DNA of 64,000 bases from Pseudomonadota bacterium (GTDB taxonomy: Bacteria > Desulfobacterota > Binatia > Binatales > Binataceae), in contig JAJPHI010000034.1 of NCBI GenBank assembly GCA_021325355.1, positions 1 through 64,000 on the forward strand, read 5' to 3'. Below, in pieces: positions 34,166-41,700 of this stretch. Both the position numbers and the translations under genes were made by a program. Positions within the stretch are counted from its first letter, which is position 1. Each line of letters begins with the position of its first letter. The notes beneath the pieces are model-generated. The model was not told the origin of the DNA. It saw nothing but the letters and a program-made list of their open reading frames with translations, and searched no databases.

Positions 34166-34969
34166 ATGGCCGGGAGTATCGCAATGCATGAAGTGGAAAA
34201 CCCGACCGGCTGGTGGAACGGGTGGCGGACGCTGTTTATCGGTTGCGCGGCACTGCTCGCCTGCAATCTGTTCCTGTGGATCTGGGATTACAGATTCGCC
34301 TTCTCCGTCGGTCTGGATTCGAGCACGCATGCCTTCACCACGCATTATCGCGCGCTCTTCTGGGGCGAGTTGATTTCACTCGGCGCTTTCACCGGTATCT
34401 GGTACGGATGGCTGGTGCGCACGGGTCGCGCGCTCGAGGGGCAGCCCATTTCGCCCTCCGAGGAGGTCCGGCGGATAGCGGTGCTGTGGGGGATCATCGG
34501 CGCGACCAGTCTCTCGCTGTATATCGAGGCGAGCTTCTGGCCGAACTGGGACGGCGCGTGGCATCAGACGATGGTGCGCGATACGGCGCTCACTCCGACC
34601 CACATCCCGATGTTCTATTTCTTCTTCCCGCTGTCGATCATTCTGGCCCTGGGCGCTTACCTCTACGGTCAGTATCGCATTCCTGCGGTTTACGCCTGGA
34701 AAAAGGGCTTCCCGTGGTCGTTCTTCCTGTTGATCTCGGCGGCGGTGCTCGAGTTCGTGCAGGTGGCCTTCAATGAATGGGGCCATAGCCTCTGGCTGTC
34801 CGAGGAATTCTTCTCGGTGCCATTTCACTGGCCGTTCGTGACCTACGGATGGCTCGCCAGCGGGATGTTCGCGGTGTGGGGTGAAACCATCATTCGGCTC
34901 CTCGCGATCGAGAAGGAAGCGCGGACCGTCGAGATCCATACGCAGACCGCGGCGGCGGGTGGTGCCTGA
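34166..34969 (+). CDS. pmoC: Copper membrane monooxygenase subunit C
   Basis: Seen: 267 aa, about six membrane segments. The segment WDGAWHQTMVRDT with LTPTHI carries D129, H133 and H146, equivalent to the CuC ligands of PmoC; NEWGHS and the following HWPF give N203, H207 and H221, equivalent to the CuD site. Known: PmoC, with PmoA and PmoB, forms the trimer of particulate methane, ammonia and hydrocarbon monooxygenases, and the catalytic copper is thought to be in PmoC. AAGGAGGT lies 6 bases before ATG 34166. It is first in the operon. The sequence does not by itself separate methane, ammonia and short-alkane enzymes. Confidence 0.95.
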   Translation: MAGSIAMHEVENPTGWWNGWRTLFIGCAALLACNLFLWIWDYRFAFSVGLDSSTHAFTTHYRALFWGELISLGAFTGIWYGWLVRTGRALEGQPISPSEEVRRIAVLWGIIGATSLSLYIEASFWPNWDGAWHQTMVRDTALTPTHIPMFYFFFPLSIILALGAYLYGQYRIPAVYAWKKGFPWSFFLLISAAVLEFVQVAFNEWGHSLWLSEEFFSVPFHWPFVTYGWLASGMFAVWGETIIRLLAIEKEARTVEIHTQTAAAGGA

Positions 34970-35007: not shown

Positions 35008-35802
35008 ATGGCGGCAGCAGCAACCACCGGCATGACCGCGGCGGAGCGGCAGAAGCGGCTCGAGCTCACGGAATTGCTCAATGCCAAGTACCAGTGGATC
35101 GACCGCACCTGGGATGTCGTCTTCTGGATCACGGCGATTTTCATCGTTGGCGGCGCGGCGGATATCACCAAGCTGCTGTTCGCCGGCGACTGGGACTTCT
35201 GGACTGACTGGAAGGATCCGCAGTGGTGGCCGGTGGTCACGGCCTTCGCGACCATTATCATCCCGTCCGCCTTGCAGTGGATTCAGTGGGTAGCGTGGCG
35301 TTTTCCAACCGGCGCCACCTACACCTGCACCTGTTTGTTCCTGGCCAGTTGGATCGGTCGATTCTTCCAATGGCATATCGCGGAAACCTATCCGTTGAAC
35401 TTCATCTGGCCGATCTCGACCGTGCCGGCCGCGATCATTCTCGACTGGATCCTGATGAAGACGCGGAGCTTCGTCGTCACGTCAGTGGTCGGCGGCGTGG
35501 TATGGGCCGTGCTGGTCTGGGCCTTCAACTATATTCCGCTCGCGCCCTACCTGCAGCCGGCGGTGTTCATGCATCACATCCTGACGGTTTCGGACGTGCA
35601 GGGTATCGCCTATATCCGTTCGCAGACGCCGGAGTATATGCGGCATATCGAACGCGGCGCGCTGCGCAGTTTCCTCGGTGAGACGCAGTATGTCTCGCTG
35701 GTCTTCGGCGGATCGCTGGCGATCCTCGGTTACTGGATCGGGCAGCTTATCGGCCGCTACCTGGCCGTCTGGCCGATCGGCAAATATATCAAGACCTACT
35801 GA
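35008..35802 (+). CDS. pmoA: Copper membrane monooxygenase subunit A
   Basis: Seen: 264 aa, about seven membrane segments. It contains GDWDFWTDWKD, encoded by the exact target of the widely used A189f pmoA/amoA primer (35185-35202), and SQTPEYMRHIERGALRSF, matching the conserved C-terminal loop of PmoA. Known: PmoA is the membrane beta-subunit. GGGGAGG precedes the ATG, 38 bases after pmoC. The rest of the sequence reads unlike Methylococcus-type PmoA, pointing to a divergent CuMMO group. Confidence 0.95.
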   Translation: MAAAATTGMTAAERQKRLELTELLNAKYQWIDRTWDVVFWITAIFIVGGAADITKLLFAGDWDFWTDWKDPQWWPVVTAFATIIIPSALQWIQWVAWRFPTGATYTCTCLFLASWIGRFFQWHIAETYPLNFIWPISTVPAAIILDWILMKTRSFVVTSVVGGVVWAVLVWAFNYIPLAPYLQPAVFMHHILTVSDVQGIAYIRSQTPEYMRHIERGALRSFLGETQYVSLVFGGSLAILGYWIGQLIGRYLAVWPIGKYIKTY

Positions 35803-35820: not shown

Positions 35821-36054
35821 ATGCGACTGCGTAATCTCTGCTGCGCCATCCTGACCGCGCTCGCCTGGCTGCTGATCAGTGCCGGCGTCGCCCATGCGCA
35901 CGGCGGGATGGCCGGACCCGATGAGATGGGTCCGCCGCTGGGTATCTCGGTCGCGCTGGGACTCGCCTGTTATTACGTCATCACGCTATGGCCGTCGCGC
36001 GAACGCGCCGACGGTGCGAAGCACGGCAAAGCGGTTCGGCGGGGTGCACGGTAG
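35821..36054 (+). CDS. Small membrane protein between pmoA and pmoB
   Basis: Seen: 77 aa with an N-terminal hydrophobic segment ending in AHA, then HGGMAGPDEMGPP, a second membrane segment (LGISVALGLACYYVITLW) and a basic tail. AGGTGAG lies upstream of ATG 35821. The gaps to pmoA and pmoB are 18 and 38 bases, so it is part of the operon. If the signal is cut after AHA, the mature protein starts with His27-Gly, as PmoB does. I do not recognise a named family; an accessory subunit or copper-binding helper is a guess. Confidence 0.75.
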   Translation: MRLRNLCCAILTALAWLLISAGVAHAHGGMAGPDEMGPPLGISVALGLACYYVITLWPSRERADGAKHGKAVRRGAR

Positions 36055-36092: not shown

Positions 36093-37343
36093 GTGAAACG
36101 AGAACGCTTGCCTGTTCTGGCGGTGGCGGTGATGCTGCTGCTGCCGATGATGCCGCGCGCGGCGGCCGCGCACGGCGAAGCCGCCGACGAACCGTTCCTT
36201 AAGGACCTGACCGTCGCATTCTATGACGTCAATATCGGCCCGACCAGCGTGACGGTCGGCCAGCCGGTGACGATCACCGGCAAACTCACGATCCTCGATA
36301 CCTGGCCCTATACGCTCGATCCGCCGCAGACGGCCTATATCACGCCCGTCGTCCCCGGACCGGTCTTCGCGCTCACCGACCGCACCATCAACGGCGAACC
36401 GGCCTTCGGATCGGTCGAAGTCGAGAAGGGCGGCACCTATGCCTTCAAGATGGTGATGCTGGCGCGCGACCCGGGTCATTGGCACGTTCATCCCGGTATC
36501 GCAATCCAGGGAACCGGTACGCTTATCGGTCCGGGACTGTGGGTCGATGTCGCGCCGAGCGGCCAGCCCTTCGTCCTGCCGGTAACCTTGCTCGACGGGC
36601 GGAAGGTTAACCTCGAGACCCTCGGCGGCAACTTCGTCTGGTGGTGGTCATTCATCGGTTTCCTCATCGGCCTGGTCTGGATGATCTACTGGACCGTGCC
36701 GAAACGGACCGTGACGCGGCTGGCGGTCACTTCACAACTGCCGGTCAACGACGATGCGCCCGATATCGGTTTGATCACGCCGCGCGATCACTTCTGGATG
36801 GACGTTCTGGCCGGACTGACCATCCTGCTCCTGGTCATCGGATGGGTGGGGATGGCGCGCAAGTATCCGGTGCGCTTGCCGCAGCAGACCGATCGTTTCG
36901 AGCCGACCTCGCTTACGCCGAGCACGCATATGGCGACGGTGCGATCATCCGGCGCGACCTTCGACCAGAGCAACGATACCCTGACGATCAACGCCCGGAT
37001 TCACAACACGAGCGCGAGTCCGATCACTCTCAAGAGCTACGTGATGGCCATGACTTCGTTCGTGGACGGCCCCGAAGAAGAGCTGGCCAAGGCGGGACCG
37101 GCCGATTACGTCGGCAAACTGAGCGTCACTCCGGACGGGGCGATCGCGCCGGGCGAAACCCGCGACGTGACGCTCAAGATGACGAGCGAAGTGTTCGAGC
37201 AGGAGCGCCTTATCCCCCTGCATGATCCGCAGCAGCTAATCGCGGGCTTGCTGCGCTTTACCGACGATCAGGGTCATCAGGACATCGTGACGCTCAAGTC
37301 GGTACTGGTGCCGACCGAGTTCCGCCCGCAGTATTTGCCTTGA
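36093..37343 (+). CDS. pmoB: Copper membrane monooxygenase subunit B
   Basis: Seen: 416 aa from GTG 36093 (GAGGGG 6 bases upstream). A signal peptide is followed by HGEAADEPFL at residue 27. The first cupredoxin domain includes GHWHVHPG (H131, H133). Two membrane helices (about 180-205 and 235-260) and a second cupredoxin domain follow. Known: His at the mature N-terminus with HxH forms the CuB site of PmoB, and all three ligands are present. The soluble domains lie in the periplasm. The position after an extra small ORF is unlike classic pmoCAB. Confidence 0.95.
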   Translation: MKRERLPVLAVAVMLLLPMMPRAAAAHGEAADEPFLKDLTVAFYDVNIGPTSVTVGQPVTITGKLTILDTWPYTLDPPQTAYITPVVPGPVFALTDRTINGEPAFGSVEVEKGGTYAFKMVMLARDPGHWHVHPGIAIQGTGTLIGPGLWVDVAPSGQPFVLPVTLLDGRKVNLETLGGNFVWWWSFIGFLIGLVWMIYWTVPKRTVTRLAVTSQLPVNDDAPDIGLITPRDHFWMDVLAGLTILLLVIGWVGMARKYPVRLPQQTDRFEPTSLTPSTHMATVRSSGATFDQSNDTLTINARIHNTSASPITLKSYVMAMTSFVDGPEEELAKAGPADYVGKLSVTPDGAIAPGETRDVTLKMTSEVFEQERLIPLHDPQQLIAGLLRFTDDQGHQDIVTLKSVLVPTEFRPQYLP

Positions 37344-37359: not shown

Positions 37360-38400
37360 ATGAAAGCCGCGGTCCTCAATAGTTACGACACGACGCTCGG
37401 CCGGAGCGATTTCGTCGTCGTCGCGGAAGTCCCCGAGCCGAAGATCAAGGCGCCGAGCGACGTGATCGTGCGGATCGGCGGGGCCGGTGTCTGCCGTACC
37501 GATTTGCACATTATCGAGGGCCTCTGGCGCGACCGCGTTAGCGTGACGCTGCCCTACATTCTGGGACACGAGAACGCCGGATGGGTCGAAGAGGTCGGCA
37601 GCGGTGTCACGGCCCTCAAACGCGGCGACGCCGTAATCTGTCATCCGTTGCTGAGCAATGGCGCCACGCTTGCGGCCCGGCGCGGCAACGATATGCACGC
37701 CGGCGGCGCCTTTCCGGGAATCGATGCGAACGGCGGCTACGCCGAACTGCTCGCCACCACGGAGCGCGCGCTCGTCAAGCTTCCGCAAACCCTCGCGCCC
37801 AAGGACGTGGCGCCACATGCTGACGCGGGCCTGACGGCCTATCACGTGGCGAAGAAGGCCTCGCGGCATTTGTTGCCGGGCGAGTACGCGGTGGTGATCG
37901 GCGCGGGCGGTCTCGGCCATATCGGTATCCAGGCGCTGCGTGCGCTGTGCGCCGCCACTATCATCGCGGTCGATCGCTCGCCGACCGCTCTGGCGCTCGC
38001 TCGCGAATCGGGCGCCGAACATCTGGTCACCGCCGACGGCAACGAAGTGGCGGCGGTGCTCGATCTGACCCATGGCAACGGCGCCGAAGCGGTAATTGAT
38101 TTCGTCGGTGAAGGGTCAGCCATCGCTCATGGGCTCGCGATGACCCGTAACGCGGGTTTCTACTACGTCGTCGGCTACGGCGGAAAAATCGAGCTTCCGA
38201 CGATGGACCTGATCGTTTCGGAGAAGACGATCGTCGGCAACCTGGTCGGCACCTATCCCGACCTGGTCGAATTGATAGCGCTGGCCGAGCGCGGACGGGT
38301 CAGGCTCGCCACGCGCGAATACCCGCTGAGTCAGGCCAACACGGCACTGCACGATCTCAAAGACGGCAAGGTCAAGGGACGCGCCGTGCTCATCCCATGA
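37360..38400 (+). CDS. Zinc-dependent alcohol dehydrogenase lacking structural-zinc cysteines
   Basis: Seen: 346 aa MDR-family dehydrogenase. Catalytic zinc ligands appear as C45 (GVCRTDLH) and H70-E71 (GHENAG), with D155 in ADAGLTAYH. The Rossmann motif is GAGGLGHIG. At the positions that normally hold the structural-zinc cysteines (C-x2-C-x2-C-x7-C) there are N100, T103, A106 and A114. Known: such enzymes oxidise primary or secondary alcohols with NAD(P)+. It starts 17 bases after pmoB, so it probably oxidises the monooxygenase product. Confidence 0.9.
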   Translation: MKAAVLNSYDTTLGRSDFVVVAEVPEPKIKAPSDVIVRIGGAGVCRTDLHIIEGLWRDRVSVTLPYILGHENAGWVEEVGSGVTALKRGDAVICHPLLSNGATLAARRGNDMHAGGAFPGIDANGGYAELLATTERALVKLPQTLAPKDVAPHADAGLTAYHVAKKASRHLLPGEYAVVIGAGGLGHIGIQALRALCAATIIAVDRSPTALALARESGAEHLVTADGNEVAAVLDLTHGNGAEAVIDFVGEGSAIAHGLAMTRNAGFYYVVGYGGKIELPTMDLIVSEKTIVGNLVGTYPDLVELIALAERGRVRLATREYPLSQANTALHDLKDGKVKGRAVLIP

Positions 38401-38425: not shown

Positions 38426-38938
38426 ATGAAGTCAGGGGAGCGTCACTGGCTGCCGCTACTGATCGCTGTGGCCCTGAGCGGATTCACCGCCGCTTCGGCT
38501 GCTGCGCAATGCCCGGGTGCAAACGGCTGCCGCGGAAAGAGCCCGGGGGGCGGGATTTACAGCCAGATGACCGGCGCGCCGACGCCACCGCCATCCGAAT
38601 CGGCGAGCGGCAATCCCGGGATGTCGTCGCTTTTCGGCGCGAGCTCGGACGATACGGCGGAGCCGGCGCCGACGCTTTATCAGGAGCGCTGCGCCAGTTG
38701 CCATGGCAAGGACGGTCACGGGGACGGACCGGGAGCGCTGGCTCTCAAGCCCAAGCCAATCAATTTCCATAACCAGGATTGGCAGCATTCAGTCAGCGAC
38801 GATCAGATTGCGAAGGCGATCGTCGAAGGCGGAGCGGCGGTGGGTCTGAGCAAGCAGATGCCCGATAATCCGGACCTTGAAGATAACCCCAAGGAAATCA
38901 CTGCGCTGGTGGCCTATATCCGCGCTTTCGGCAAATGA
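38426..38938 (+). CDS. Periplasmic monohaem cytochrome c
   Basis: Seen: 170 aa with signal peptide (cleavage near ASAAAQ), a Pro/Ser linker, one CASCH haem motif (C89, C92, H93) and a likely axial Met in SKQMPDNP (M145). Known: a class I cytochrome c of the periplasm. It precedes the GMC dehydrogenase genes and is likely their electron acceptor; it may also serve the monooxygenase electron supply. Same strand, 26 bases after the alcohol dehydrogenase. Confidence 0.92.
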   Translation: MKSGERHWLPLLIAVALSGFTAASAAAQCPGANGCRGKSPGGGIYSQMTGAPTPPPSESASGNPGMSSLFGASSDDTAEPAPTLYQERCASCHGKDGHGDGPGALALKPKPINFHNQDWQHSVSDDQIAKAIVEGGAAVGLSKQMPDNPDLEDNPKEITALVAYIRAFGK

Positions 38939-38948
38939 TGAGAACCCT

Positions 38949-39485
38949 ATGAAGCGACGTGAATTCCTGAAGCGTACGGCACTGCTCGCGACCGGTGCCG
39001 CGGCGGCCGCCTCCGGTCTCGGCGTCGGACTGACGGCGGCCGATCCTTCGCCGCCGACGGCGCTCGATGCGCATCAGCAGGCGACCCTCTTGGCCATGAC
39101 GCGCCAGATCTATCCCCACGACCGCCTGGCCACCGCCGATTATCAGAAGGTGGTCGATGAACTCGACGCGCAGGCGGCGCAAACCCCGGCGACGGCGGCG
39201 CTGTTGCGTGACGGCGTCGCGAGCCTCGATAGCGGCGGCAGCACCAAGTTTGTCGATCTGAGCGCCGAGCAACAGGTGGCGGCGCTCAAGAAGATCGATA
39301 CCACACCCTTTTTTCAAAAGGTGCAGAGTACGGCGCTGGTGGCGCTTTATAACAACCACGACGTATGGAAAAAGCTGGGTTATCCCGGCCCCTCCTACCA
39401 GATCGGCGGTTATATCCATCATGGCTTCAATGATTTGAGCTGGCTGCCGAATCCTCCAGAATTCGCCAGCCCGAAACCCGCTTGA
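38949..39485 (+). CDS. Gluconate 2-dehydrogenase subunit 3-family protein
   Basis: Seen: 178 aa from ATG 38949. The N-terminus KRREFLKRTALLATGAAA is a Tat-type signal, and the body has ATLLAMTRQIYPHD and WKKLGYPGPSYQIGGY, typical of the small subunit that accompanies GMC-type gluconate and alcohol dehydrogenases. Known: it helps export and mature the flavoprotein partner. It lies 10 bases after the cytochrome and almost overlaps the GMC gene. Confidence 0.9.
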   Translation: MKRREFLKRTALLATGAAAAASGLGVGLTAADPSPPTALDAHQQATLLAMTRQIYPHDRLATADYQKVVDELDAQAAQTPATAALLRDGVASLDSGGSTKFVDLSAEQQVAALKKIDTTPFFQKVQSTALVALYNNHDVWKKLGYPGPSYQIGGYIHHGFNDLSWLPNPPEFASPKPA

Positions 39486-39493
39486 GGAGCGAC

Positions 39494-41062
39494 GTGGCAA
39501 AGTACGATCTCAAGGACGATTCGGTCGTCGTGATAATCGGTTCCGGGGCGGGCGGCGGCACGCTCGCCAACGAGCTTTGTCAAAAGGGCCTCAAAGTGGT
39601 GCTGCTCGAAGCCGGCAAGCGACAGTCACCGGCCACCTTTCACAACGACGAGTGGGCGGCGTTCAACCAGCTTGCCTGGCTCGACAAGCGCACGACCTCG
39701 GGCAGTTGGCGGGTGGCGAAGGATTTTCCCAATCTGCCGGCGTGGACCTGCAAGACGGTCGGCGGCACCACGACCCATTGGGCGGGCGCTTCGCTGCGTC
39801 TGCAGGACTACGAGTTCAAAGCCAAAACGGTGTACTCGGGCGTCAGCGGCGCCAATCTCCTCGACTGGCCGCTGACGCTGGACGAGCTCGCTCCCTACTA
39901 CAGCAAGGCCGAGTACAAGATGGGAGTGACGCGGACCAACGATATTCCCGGTTTGCCAGGGAACAACAACTTCAAGGTCATGTATAACGGCGCGACGCGC
40001 GTCGGTTACAAGACCGTCCATACGGGGCGGATGGCGATCAACAGCCGCCCGCGCGATGATCGTTCGGCCTGCTGGCAGCTTGGCTTCTGCTTTCAGGGCT
40101 GCAAGTCCGGCGCGAAGTGGTCAACCCTGTATACCGAAATTCCCAAGGCTGAAGCTACCGGCCGGCTCGATCTGCGCACCCAGGCGCAGGCCTTGCAGAT
40201 TCAGCACGACGCGCGCGGCAGAGTGACCGGGGTGCTCTATGCCGACCGCGCGGGGACGCACAATCTGCAGAAAGCGCGGGTGGTATGCGTCGCCTGCAAC
40301 TCCATCGAGACCGCGCGGCTCCTGCTCAACTCCCATTCGTCGCAATTCCCGCAGGGCCTCGCCAACAGCTCCGGCCAGGTGGGTCGCAACTACATGCGCC
40401 ATACGACCGGCTCCGTCTTCGGCATCTTCAAGCAGCCCGTCCATATGTACCGCGGCACCGTGATGGCCGGAATTGTCGCCGACGAGTCGCGCTTCGATCC
40501 GTCGCGCGGCTTCGCCGGCGGTTTCGAGTTCGAAACGATCTCGCTCGGCCTGCCCTTCGCCGCGGCCTTCTTGAATCCGGGCGCGTGGGGGCGCGAATAC
40601 ACCGCGCTGCTCGATCAGTACGATTACATGGCCGGGATGTGGATCGTCGGCGAGGATATGCCGCAGGAAAGCAACGCCGTAACCCTGCATCCGACGGAGA
40701 AGGATCAGTTCGGACTGCCGATTCCGAACGTCCACTACGACGACCATCCGAACGACGCCGCGATGCGCAACTATGCCTACAAGCGCGGCACGGCGATCTA
40801 TCAGGCGGTCGACGCGGTCAAAGTTATCGAAGTGCCGCCCTATCCTTCGACGCATAATCTGGGCACCGCGCGGATGAGCGCCAATGCACGCGACGGCGTC
40901 TGCAACAAGTACGGGCAAACCCACGATATCAGGAATCTCTTCATCTCCGACGGCAGCCAGTTCACCACCGGCGGCGGTGAGAATCCCACCCTGACTATCG
41001 TGACGCTGGCGATTCGGCAGGCGGACTACATCGCCCGCGAATGCTCCCGGCGCAACATTTGA
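39494..41062 (+). CDS. GMC-family FAD dehydrogenase (membrane alcohol/sugar dehydrogenase type)
   Basis: Seen: 522 aa from GTG 39494, with GAGGAG overlapping the previous stop. FAD dinucleotide motif VIIGSGAGGGTLANEL at the N-terminus, the cluster CWQLGFCFQGCKSGAKWS, and the catalytic His-containing THNLGTARM near the C-terminus. Known: large subunit of three-component gluconate/sorbitol/alcohol dehydrogenases that pass electrons to cytochrome c in the periplasm. With the two preceding genes it completes such a complex. Its placement behind pmoCAB suggests it oxidises an alcohol made by the monooxygenase. Confidence 0.92.
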   Translation: MAKYDLKDDSVVVIIGSGAGGGTLANELCQKGLKVVLLEAGKRQSPATFHNDEWAAFNQLAWLDKRTTSGSWRVAKDFPNLPAWTCKTVGGTTTHWAGASLRLQDYEFKAKTVYSGVSGANLLDWPLTLDELAPYYSKAEYKMGVTRTNDIPGLPGNNNFKVMYNGATRVGYKTVHTGRMAINSRPRDDRSACWQLGFCFQGCKSGAKWSTLYTEIPKAEATGRLDLRTQAQALQIQHDARGRVTGVLYADRAGTHNLQKARVVCVACNSIETARLLLNSHSSQFPQGLANSSGQVGRNYMRHTTGSVFGIFKQPVHMYRGTVMAGIVADESRFDPSRGFAGGFEFETISLGLPFAAAFLNPGAWGREYTALLDQYDYMAGMWIVGEDMPQESNAVTLHPTEKDQFGLPIPNVHYDDHPNDAAMRNYAYKRGTAIYQAVDAVKVIEVPPYPSTHNLGTARMSANARDGVCNKYGQTHDIRNLFISDGSQFTTGGGENPTLTIVTLAIRQADYIARECSRRNI

Positions 41063-41073
41063 GGGCACGGATC

Positions 41074-41700
41074 ATGGGTTACCGCCTCCACCGCTCGGGA
41101 ACTCGTCGCGTCAATCCGCTGGCAACGGCCGTCATCGCAGGCGCGCTGCTGCTCGTGCCCTCGCGCATGACGCGCGCGGTGCAGACCGGCACCAATGCCG
41201 CCGACGCTCCGGCGGTGGATTACCTCCCTGACATTCCGCTGGTGGATCAGTACGGCCACAACACCACGCTGGCGTCTTTCAAGGGCAAGCCCGCTTTGGT
41301 CGGCTTCATCCATACTTCGTGCGGCGGCGTCTGCCAGATGCTGACGGCGAAGATGAAGAGCGTCGCCGACAGCGTCACGCCACCCTTCGGCGCAAAGCTC
41401 ACGATGATCACCATCACCACCGACCCGAAGGAGGATGGACCAACGCAGCTCACCTGGTATGCGAAAGCCCAGGGAGCGACCGATCCAGGGTGGGTCTTCC
41501 TGACCGGCAAGCCGGAGAATGTCGCGACGGTTCTGCGCCTGTACGGGGTGCCGGACGATCCCGACGATGCGCTGACGCACGTTTTCGAGCTGCGTCTGAT
41601 TGGCGCCAATGGCGCGCAACTCAAAGACTACAAGGGCAGCAATATCAAGCCGTCCCAAGTCGCCGCGGATCTGCGCGACGTTCTCGCCCATCGCGATTGA
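41074..41700 (+). CDS. SCO1/SenC-family copper chaperone
   Basis: Seen: 208 aa. An N-terminal hydrophobic stretch is followed by a thioredoxin-like fold with HTSCGGVCQML, the CxxxC copper/thiol pair, and a His in LTHVFEL. Known: SCO proteins bring copper to periplasmic or membrane copper centres such as CuA. Here it is the last gene of the pmo operon, so it probably helps load copper into the monooxygenase. ATG 41074, with GAGGGC upstream, was preferred over 41041, which would overlap the GMC gene. Confidence 0.9.
   Translation: MGYRLHRSGTRRVNPLATAVIAGALLLVPSRMTRAVQTGTNAADAPAVDYLPDIPLVDQYGHNTTLASFKGKPALVGFIHTSCGGVCQMLTAKMKSVADSVTPPFGAKLTMITITTDPKEDGPTQLTWYAKAQGATDPGWVFLTGKPENVATVLRLYGVPDDPDDALTHVFELRLIGANGAQLKDYKGSNIKPSQVAADLRDVLAHRD

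Follow-up and report, generated by a model that had tools for sequence, protein, structure and literature searches.

The window, meaning the whole 64,000-nucleotide stretch of DNA that was analysed, carries a copper membrane monooxygenase (CuMMO) operon in which a short ORF, referred to here as SML, lies between the genes for subunits A and B. The features of the locus are as follows:

34166..34969, + strand: pmoC/hmoC, CuMMO subunit C (Pfam AmoC; presumptive CuC and CuD ligands present)
35008..35802, + strand: pmoA/hmoA, CuMMO subunit A (Pfam AMO)
35821..36054, + strand: SML, small His-first membrane protein gene, the "x" of Murphy et al. 2021 (ORF and family analyses)
35821..35898, + strand: predicted signal peptide of SML, residues 1-26, ending VAHA (cleavage-site pattern, dN, model helix 2-26)
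35899..35937, + strand: predicted mature periplasmic stub HGGMAGPDEMGPP, residues 27-39 (His27 at +1, Glu35 invariant)
35938..35994, + strand: predicted single membrane helix, residues 40-58, with a Trp-Pro end (hydropathy, conservation; model helix 33-76)
35995..36051, + strand: predicted basic cytoplasmic tail, residues 59-77 (Arg/Lys excess in homologues, positive-inside rule)
36093..37343, + strand: pmoB/hmoB, CuMMO subunit B (Pfam Monooxygenase_B; mature His27 and HVH CuB ligands present)
37360..38400, + strand: zinc-type alcohol dehydrogenase, in the same operon as SML
38426..38938, + strand: cytochrome c, in the same operon as SML
38946..39485, + strand: gluconate 2-dehydrogenase subunit 3-like protein
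39482..41062, + strand: GMC oxidoreductase
41041..41700, + strand: SCO1/SenC copper chaperone

The SML frame (ORF 35821-36054, + strand) translates to 77 amino acids, MRLRNLCCAILTALAWLLISAGVAHAHGGMAGPDEMGPPLGISVALGLACYYVITLWPSRERADGAKHGKAVRRGAR, and AGGTGAG stands a few bases upstream of its ATG. As an earlier note on this DNA had described, the product has two hydrophobic segments and its gene sits between pmoA and pmoB. The search for conserved homologues that the same note had proposed was run on genomes of the class Binatia, a group of soil bacteria, and found them in related operons, with E values down to 1e-25 for a single-protein query; residues A26, H27, G28, E35, P39, Y51, W57, and P58 are invariant in an alignment of 16 sequences. 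Pairwise counts place dN well below dS in most pairs, indicating purifying selection, with a few very close pairs carrying too few changes to judge. SML is a real, conserved gene that was previously uncharacterised. The suggestion that it is a chance ORF or a functionless remnant draws on its short length and on the degraded state of some orphan copies (L104, L105), and deserves next to no credence, being refuted by the conservation, the purifying selection, and the co-occurrence with PmoB described below. Profile searches of Pfam, NCBIfam, and the PDB placed SML in no family, and nothing in those collections linked its sequence to a known CuMMO subunit or copper protein; SML as a query against plasmids gave no match. 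A weak PDB match to an AA10 LPMO (E = 0.56) spans only the signal peptide and the residues AHG.

The earlier note had called this protein unrecognised. SML had indeed not been analysed before, but it had been drawn: CAxB and CAxxB CuMMO operons, with x a hypothetical protein, are recorded for Binatota by Murphy et al. (2021, PMC8262859). Their x resembles SML in phylum and position, and the CAxxB order fits the tandem pairs of L115 and L116, a likeness of arrangement. In that study x is only drawn as hypothetical, and the main text holds no analysis of its sequence, processing, or conservation.

The operon survey comprised 53 annotated loci. Every one of the 26 intact operons that share the window's type has SML between A and B, and the operons cut off by a contig end (L055, L113, L120, L122) are consistent with the order A-SML-B so far as they are present. 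The genes for the alcohol dehydrogenase, cytochrome c, gluconate-dehydrogenase-3, GMC, and SCO1 proteins are found downstream (e.g., L106, L107, L111, L118), upstream (e.g., L108, L112, L122), or not nearby at all (e.g., L123). Because this set changes place or goes missing, SML is the sole gene other than C, A, and B that always stays. Two CuMMO types coexist in many Binatia genomes, one with SML and one encoded by a canonical-type operon. The canonical-type operons (L086-L099), each accompanied in its genome by the window's type, encode a PmoB about 30% identical to that of the window, and SML is missing from 14 of 14 of them, A and B being adjacent with no space between. Tandem, divergent SML copies occur between pmoA and pmoB in two lineages (CAxxB; L115:7489-8155, L116:6014-6584) and possibly form a hetero-pair.

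The distribution of SML follows that of the enzyme. Homologues were found in 30 of the 148 Binatia genomes surveyed, all of them MAGs, and span 16 genera; PmoB (PF04744) was found in 32 of the 148. All 30 SML carriers possess PmoB and none of the 116 PmoB-free genomes possesses SML (Fisher p = 2.4e-29, a value that overstates the count of independent events because the genomes are related). In the two genomes with PmoB only (G020, G029), the PmoB pieces are truncated at contig ends. SML distances correlate with those of PmoA and PmoB (Spearman 0.56 and 0.57; Mantel p = 0.0005), more weakly than PmoA and PmoB distances correlate with each other (0.90). A phylum-wide scan sampled mostly distant classes and added little. 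SML is a dedicated partner of one CuMMO type. Orphan homologues (HAHRGFGPAELG...) with no pmo gene near them (L100:6187-6561, L101:5938-6285, L102:6184-6462, L103:6013-6285) are confined to some genomes of one Binatia genus and count against that reading. These orphans keep the His and the Glu and have Arg in place of Gly28; a further copy, L104, is degraded.

Processing of the product has also been probed. The junctions are as the earlier note had given them, with a cut after AHA leaving H27-G-G-M in SML and a cut after AAA (RAAAA before HGE) leaving H27-G-E in PmoB. In 35 of 35 distinct SML sequences, tabulated by selection on the Ala-His motif, position -3 is Ala, Val, or Gly, position -1 is Ala, and position +1 is His; only the degraded orphans L104 and L105 failed this selection, and therefore no in-operon exception is hidden. 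The n- and h-regions preceding the site are variable, with dN above that of the mature part (0.60 versus 0.29 for the window and a congener). Among other signal-peptide-like ORFs, over a baseline of about 600 kb of Binatia loci plus the window, His at +1 was seen only in PmoB and PmoD-like proteins. The AlphaFold model of SML (mean pLDDT 70, pTM 0.36) contains helices at residues 2-26 and 33-76, interrupted at 27-32. The earlier note had named non-cleavage of the first segment as an outcome that would overturn its proposal, and both the A/V/G-x-A pattern before His and the end of the model helix at residue 26 favour cleavage. These patterns suggest that SML is very likely cleaved exactly before His27, so that the mature protein would start with His.

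It could be argued instead that the N-terminal segment stays in place and that SML is a two-helix protein, the positional counterpart of archaeal AmoX/PmoX. SML does have two hydrophobic segments, the C-A-x-B position is the same as the C-A-X-B order of Angelarchaeales (PMC9038741), and AmoX of N. viennensis is credited with two membrane segments (PMC10030591). However, the strict A/V/G-x-A-His junction and a first segment that evolves quickly and keeps only its pattern fit a cleaved signal peptide, leaving the two-helix arrangement very improbable.

If cleaved, SML would present a short N-terminal stub. Across homologues the stub is 10-15 residues long and contains an invariant Glu. The N-terminus would lie outside because the tail is rich in Arg and Lys (positive-inside rule). 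Conservation around the helix is uneven, with S/A, G/A, Y, and V/M on one face (small-xxx-small-xxx-Tyr; conservation moment marginal, p = 0.049), which hints at a single packing face. The Met and Asp residues of the linker, to which the earlier note had drawn attention, do not hold up, as Met30 is replaced by I, L, V, F, or N and Asp34 by A, G, S, or E in homologues, and the invariant acidic residue is Glu35. Met30 and Asp34 were consequently rejected as copper ligands. No SML homologue has a second His in the periplasmic stub, and none has a Cys there.

The core copper sites of the partner enzyme appear complete. In all alignable operons of the window's type, the PmoB residues H27, H131, and H133 that form CuB are conserved, as are the PmoC residues that we take, from the M. 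capsulatus numbering, to be the CuC (D129, H133, H146) and CuD (N203, H207, H221) positions. The CuB ligands are given as His33, 137, and 139 in PMC8262859 and PMC12576850. Replacement of a lost core copper ligand by SML was rejected, since CuB, CuC, and CuD are all intact. The label pmo used in the earlier note is better read as a hydrocarbon-type CuMMO. The PQQ methanol dehydrogenase family (TIGR03075, PQQ alcohol dehydrogenases) has no match in the window's genome, and the SML operon carries alcohol-oxidising genes; most Binatota PmoA sequences group with enzymes of Actinobacteria and SAR324, among which the characterised ones oxidise short alkanes (PMC8262859). On these three grounds the enzyme is assigned as putatively hydrocarbon-type, a substrate class predicted from gene content and sequence grouping.

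Among known CuMMO-associated proteins, PmoD and its relatives AmoD and AmoE (PMC6189053; PDB 6CPD) resemble SML in having a signal peptide, a periplasmic part, a membrane helix, and linkage to CuMMO genes. PmoD/AmoD is defined by a periplasmic cupredoxin-like domain in which a strictly conserved pair of Cys forms a CuA site (PMC6189053), whereas the SML stub, some 12 residues long, contains no Cys. A PmoD homologue from the SML loci matches 6CPD (E = 6.5e-8), while SML gave no match to 6CPD at E <= 10 in the PDB profile search. With no such match and no periplasmic Cys pair, the identification of SML as PmoD was rejected. PmoD homologues occur in 23 Binatia genomes, 22 of which are SML carriers, and in several lineages a PmoD homologue and SML share an operon; in four carriers PmoD lies solely beside the canonical operon. 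SML might still stand in for PmoD in hydrocarbon-type CuMMOs, as a helper for copper or for electron transfer. CuMMO-bearing genomes of Mycobacterium and Nocardioides reportedly lack PmoD (PMC6189053), and a PmoD match is absent from eight SML carriers, namely the window's genome and seven others. Substitution is nonetheless quite unlikely, as SML lacks the two periplasmic Cys and is no simple substitute for a protein with which it occurs together in many operons.

The Binatia PmoD homologues, like SML, start with His after an AxA site (L089:3364-4149, L088:2-511, L122:2212-2808, L129:2820-3512, L132:2638-3357, L134:9249-9923), their predicted mature starts being HGGGxGLDxDPC or HRDRGPDDPC. 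PmoB, PmoD, and SML would thus all start with His in Binatia. Additionally, single ORFs beside Binatia CuMMO operons join a PmoD-like domain to a SCO1/SenC domain in an apparent PmoD-SCO1 fusion (L108:2479-3774, L109:2598-3908, L112:8559-9701, L113:2069-3217); these have a signal peptide and an AH-xxGGPNDPC start.

The nearest working analogues of SML are likely AmoX, AmoY, and AmoZ, small extra subunits with structural roles in archaeal AMO (PMC10030591). Like SML, these are small helical membrane proteins; their genes accompany the AMO genes, and the proteins were found with the complex. AmoX is credited with two membrane segments and has no reported His-first start (PMC10030591), and its likeness to SML is one of description only; for PmoX/AmoX of Angelarchaeales (PMC9038741), which are archaeal and share the C-A-X-B gene order, the likeness is one of position only. 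The mature N-terminal His recalls the CuB site of PmoB and the LPMOs, a resemblance that for SML is one of sequence pattern only. A His brace calls for one or more further His ligands, supplied by the same chain, and the SML stub has none.

Possible counterparts were also found outside Binatia. One, an ORF of weak similarity to SML, stands between A and B of a Rokubacterial operon (L166:5766-5993, AVADHGRLLEGEGDLSGG..., E = 0.0076), and its score was reached by 0 of 5000 shuffles. In actinobacterial hmo operons a small ORF directly after B reads LAHGGQ-[ML]-T-[GS]-DE-[MI] followed by one helix; its profile scores were reached by 0.2-0.7% of shuffles, and its profile-profile match to SML is weak (probability 4.5%, E = 0.0089). 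The ORFs of Mycolicibacterium NBB4, M. dioxanotrophicus, and Rhodococcus plasmids share with SML an AHGG-x4-DE[MI] motif, one membrane helix, and a basic tail, but have no signal peptide, place the His at residue 8-9, and follow hmoB rather than lying between A and B. In actinobacterial hmo operons hmoB is followed by a pair of small single-helix ORFs (71 and 114 aa in NBB4; L174:7110-7666, L175:7065-7705), the first of which carries AHGG...DE ahead of its helix; the NBB4 and M. dioxanotrophicus records annotate them merely as hypothetical proteins. The actinobacterial and Rokubacterial ORFs, in which the His-Gly motif is internal, are possible counterparts of SML. Were they related to SML, His-Gly would be the feature that counts, and a free N-terminal His would not; were they not, SML would be peculiar to Binatia. 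Because these possible counterparts have no free N-terminal His, an N-terminal copper site would be no general requirement.

Genetic linkage to the core genes and co-occurrence with them, the pattern expected of a CuMMO accessory subunit, were both found for SML. SML looks like a fourth component of the enzyme because it is always with the CuMMO and is very probably His-first. We consider it, with a probability of roughly 0.6, a small protein dedicated to the Binatia hydrocarbon-type CuMMO, serving either as an accessory subunit or as an assembly factor. The earlier note had proposed a fourth subunit or a copper-handling helper; linkage makes subunit or helper the best reading, and the copper part is weakened by the missing second His and the variable Met and Asp. 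SML would be made with a signal peptide, and cleavage behind Ala26 by signal peptidase I would leave a mature protein of about 51 residues, consisting of the His-Gly periplasmic stub, one membrane helix, and the basic cytoplasmic tail. The small-xxx-small-xxx-Tyr face of the helix may pack on the membrane core of PmoA, PmoC, and PmoB. An unassigned membrane helix is present in some pMMO crystal structures. With the stub outside and the tail cytoplasmic, the stub would sit where the membrane meets the periplasm, on the side shared with the cupredoxin domains of PmoB. The likeliest function of the N-terminal His and the Glu would be to help hold or pass copper there, together with a ligand contributed by a different subunit. 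Conservation, position, co-occurrence, and the cleavage-site pattern are observed, and from this basis we infer physical association and metal binding.

A copper role for His27 and Glu35 is possible on the residue pattern. The more specific proposal, that His27, the invariant Glu, and a residue of PmoB, PmoC, or PmoA form an extra inter-subunit copper site of hydrocarbon-type CuMMOs, is unlikely; if true, the hydrocarbon-type would need an additional site that, in the canonical enzymes for methane and ammonia, is missing or constructed differently. A purely structural function, for which we see somewhat less than an even chance, would have the helix stabilise the CuMMO trimer or aid insertion or assembly, with the His-Gly start binding no metal and serving as a packing or cleavage-site feature. 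The structural roles of AmoX, AmoY, and AmoZ, the intact core copper ligands, and the possible actinobacterial counterparts with AHGG...DE before the helix and no signal peptide all agree with such a function. Yet packing leaves unexplained why His stands at +1 in every one of the 35 sequences when the His-to-helix distance varies by several residues.

CuMMOs control the oxidation of methane, ammonia, and short alkanes. Activity is lost from the purified enzymes, and the suspicion that components are missing is an old one (PMC6189053). SML offers a tangible candidate for a component of this kind, given its linkage to one enzyme type, its absence from the canonical paralogues, and its predicted mature His. 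As the difference is the presence or absence of one gene, its role is testable, and co-expression of SML would be advisable in the production of Binatia-type hydrocarbon monooxygenases.
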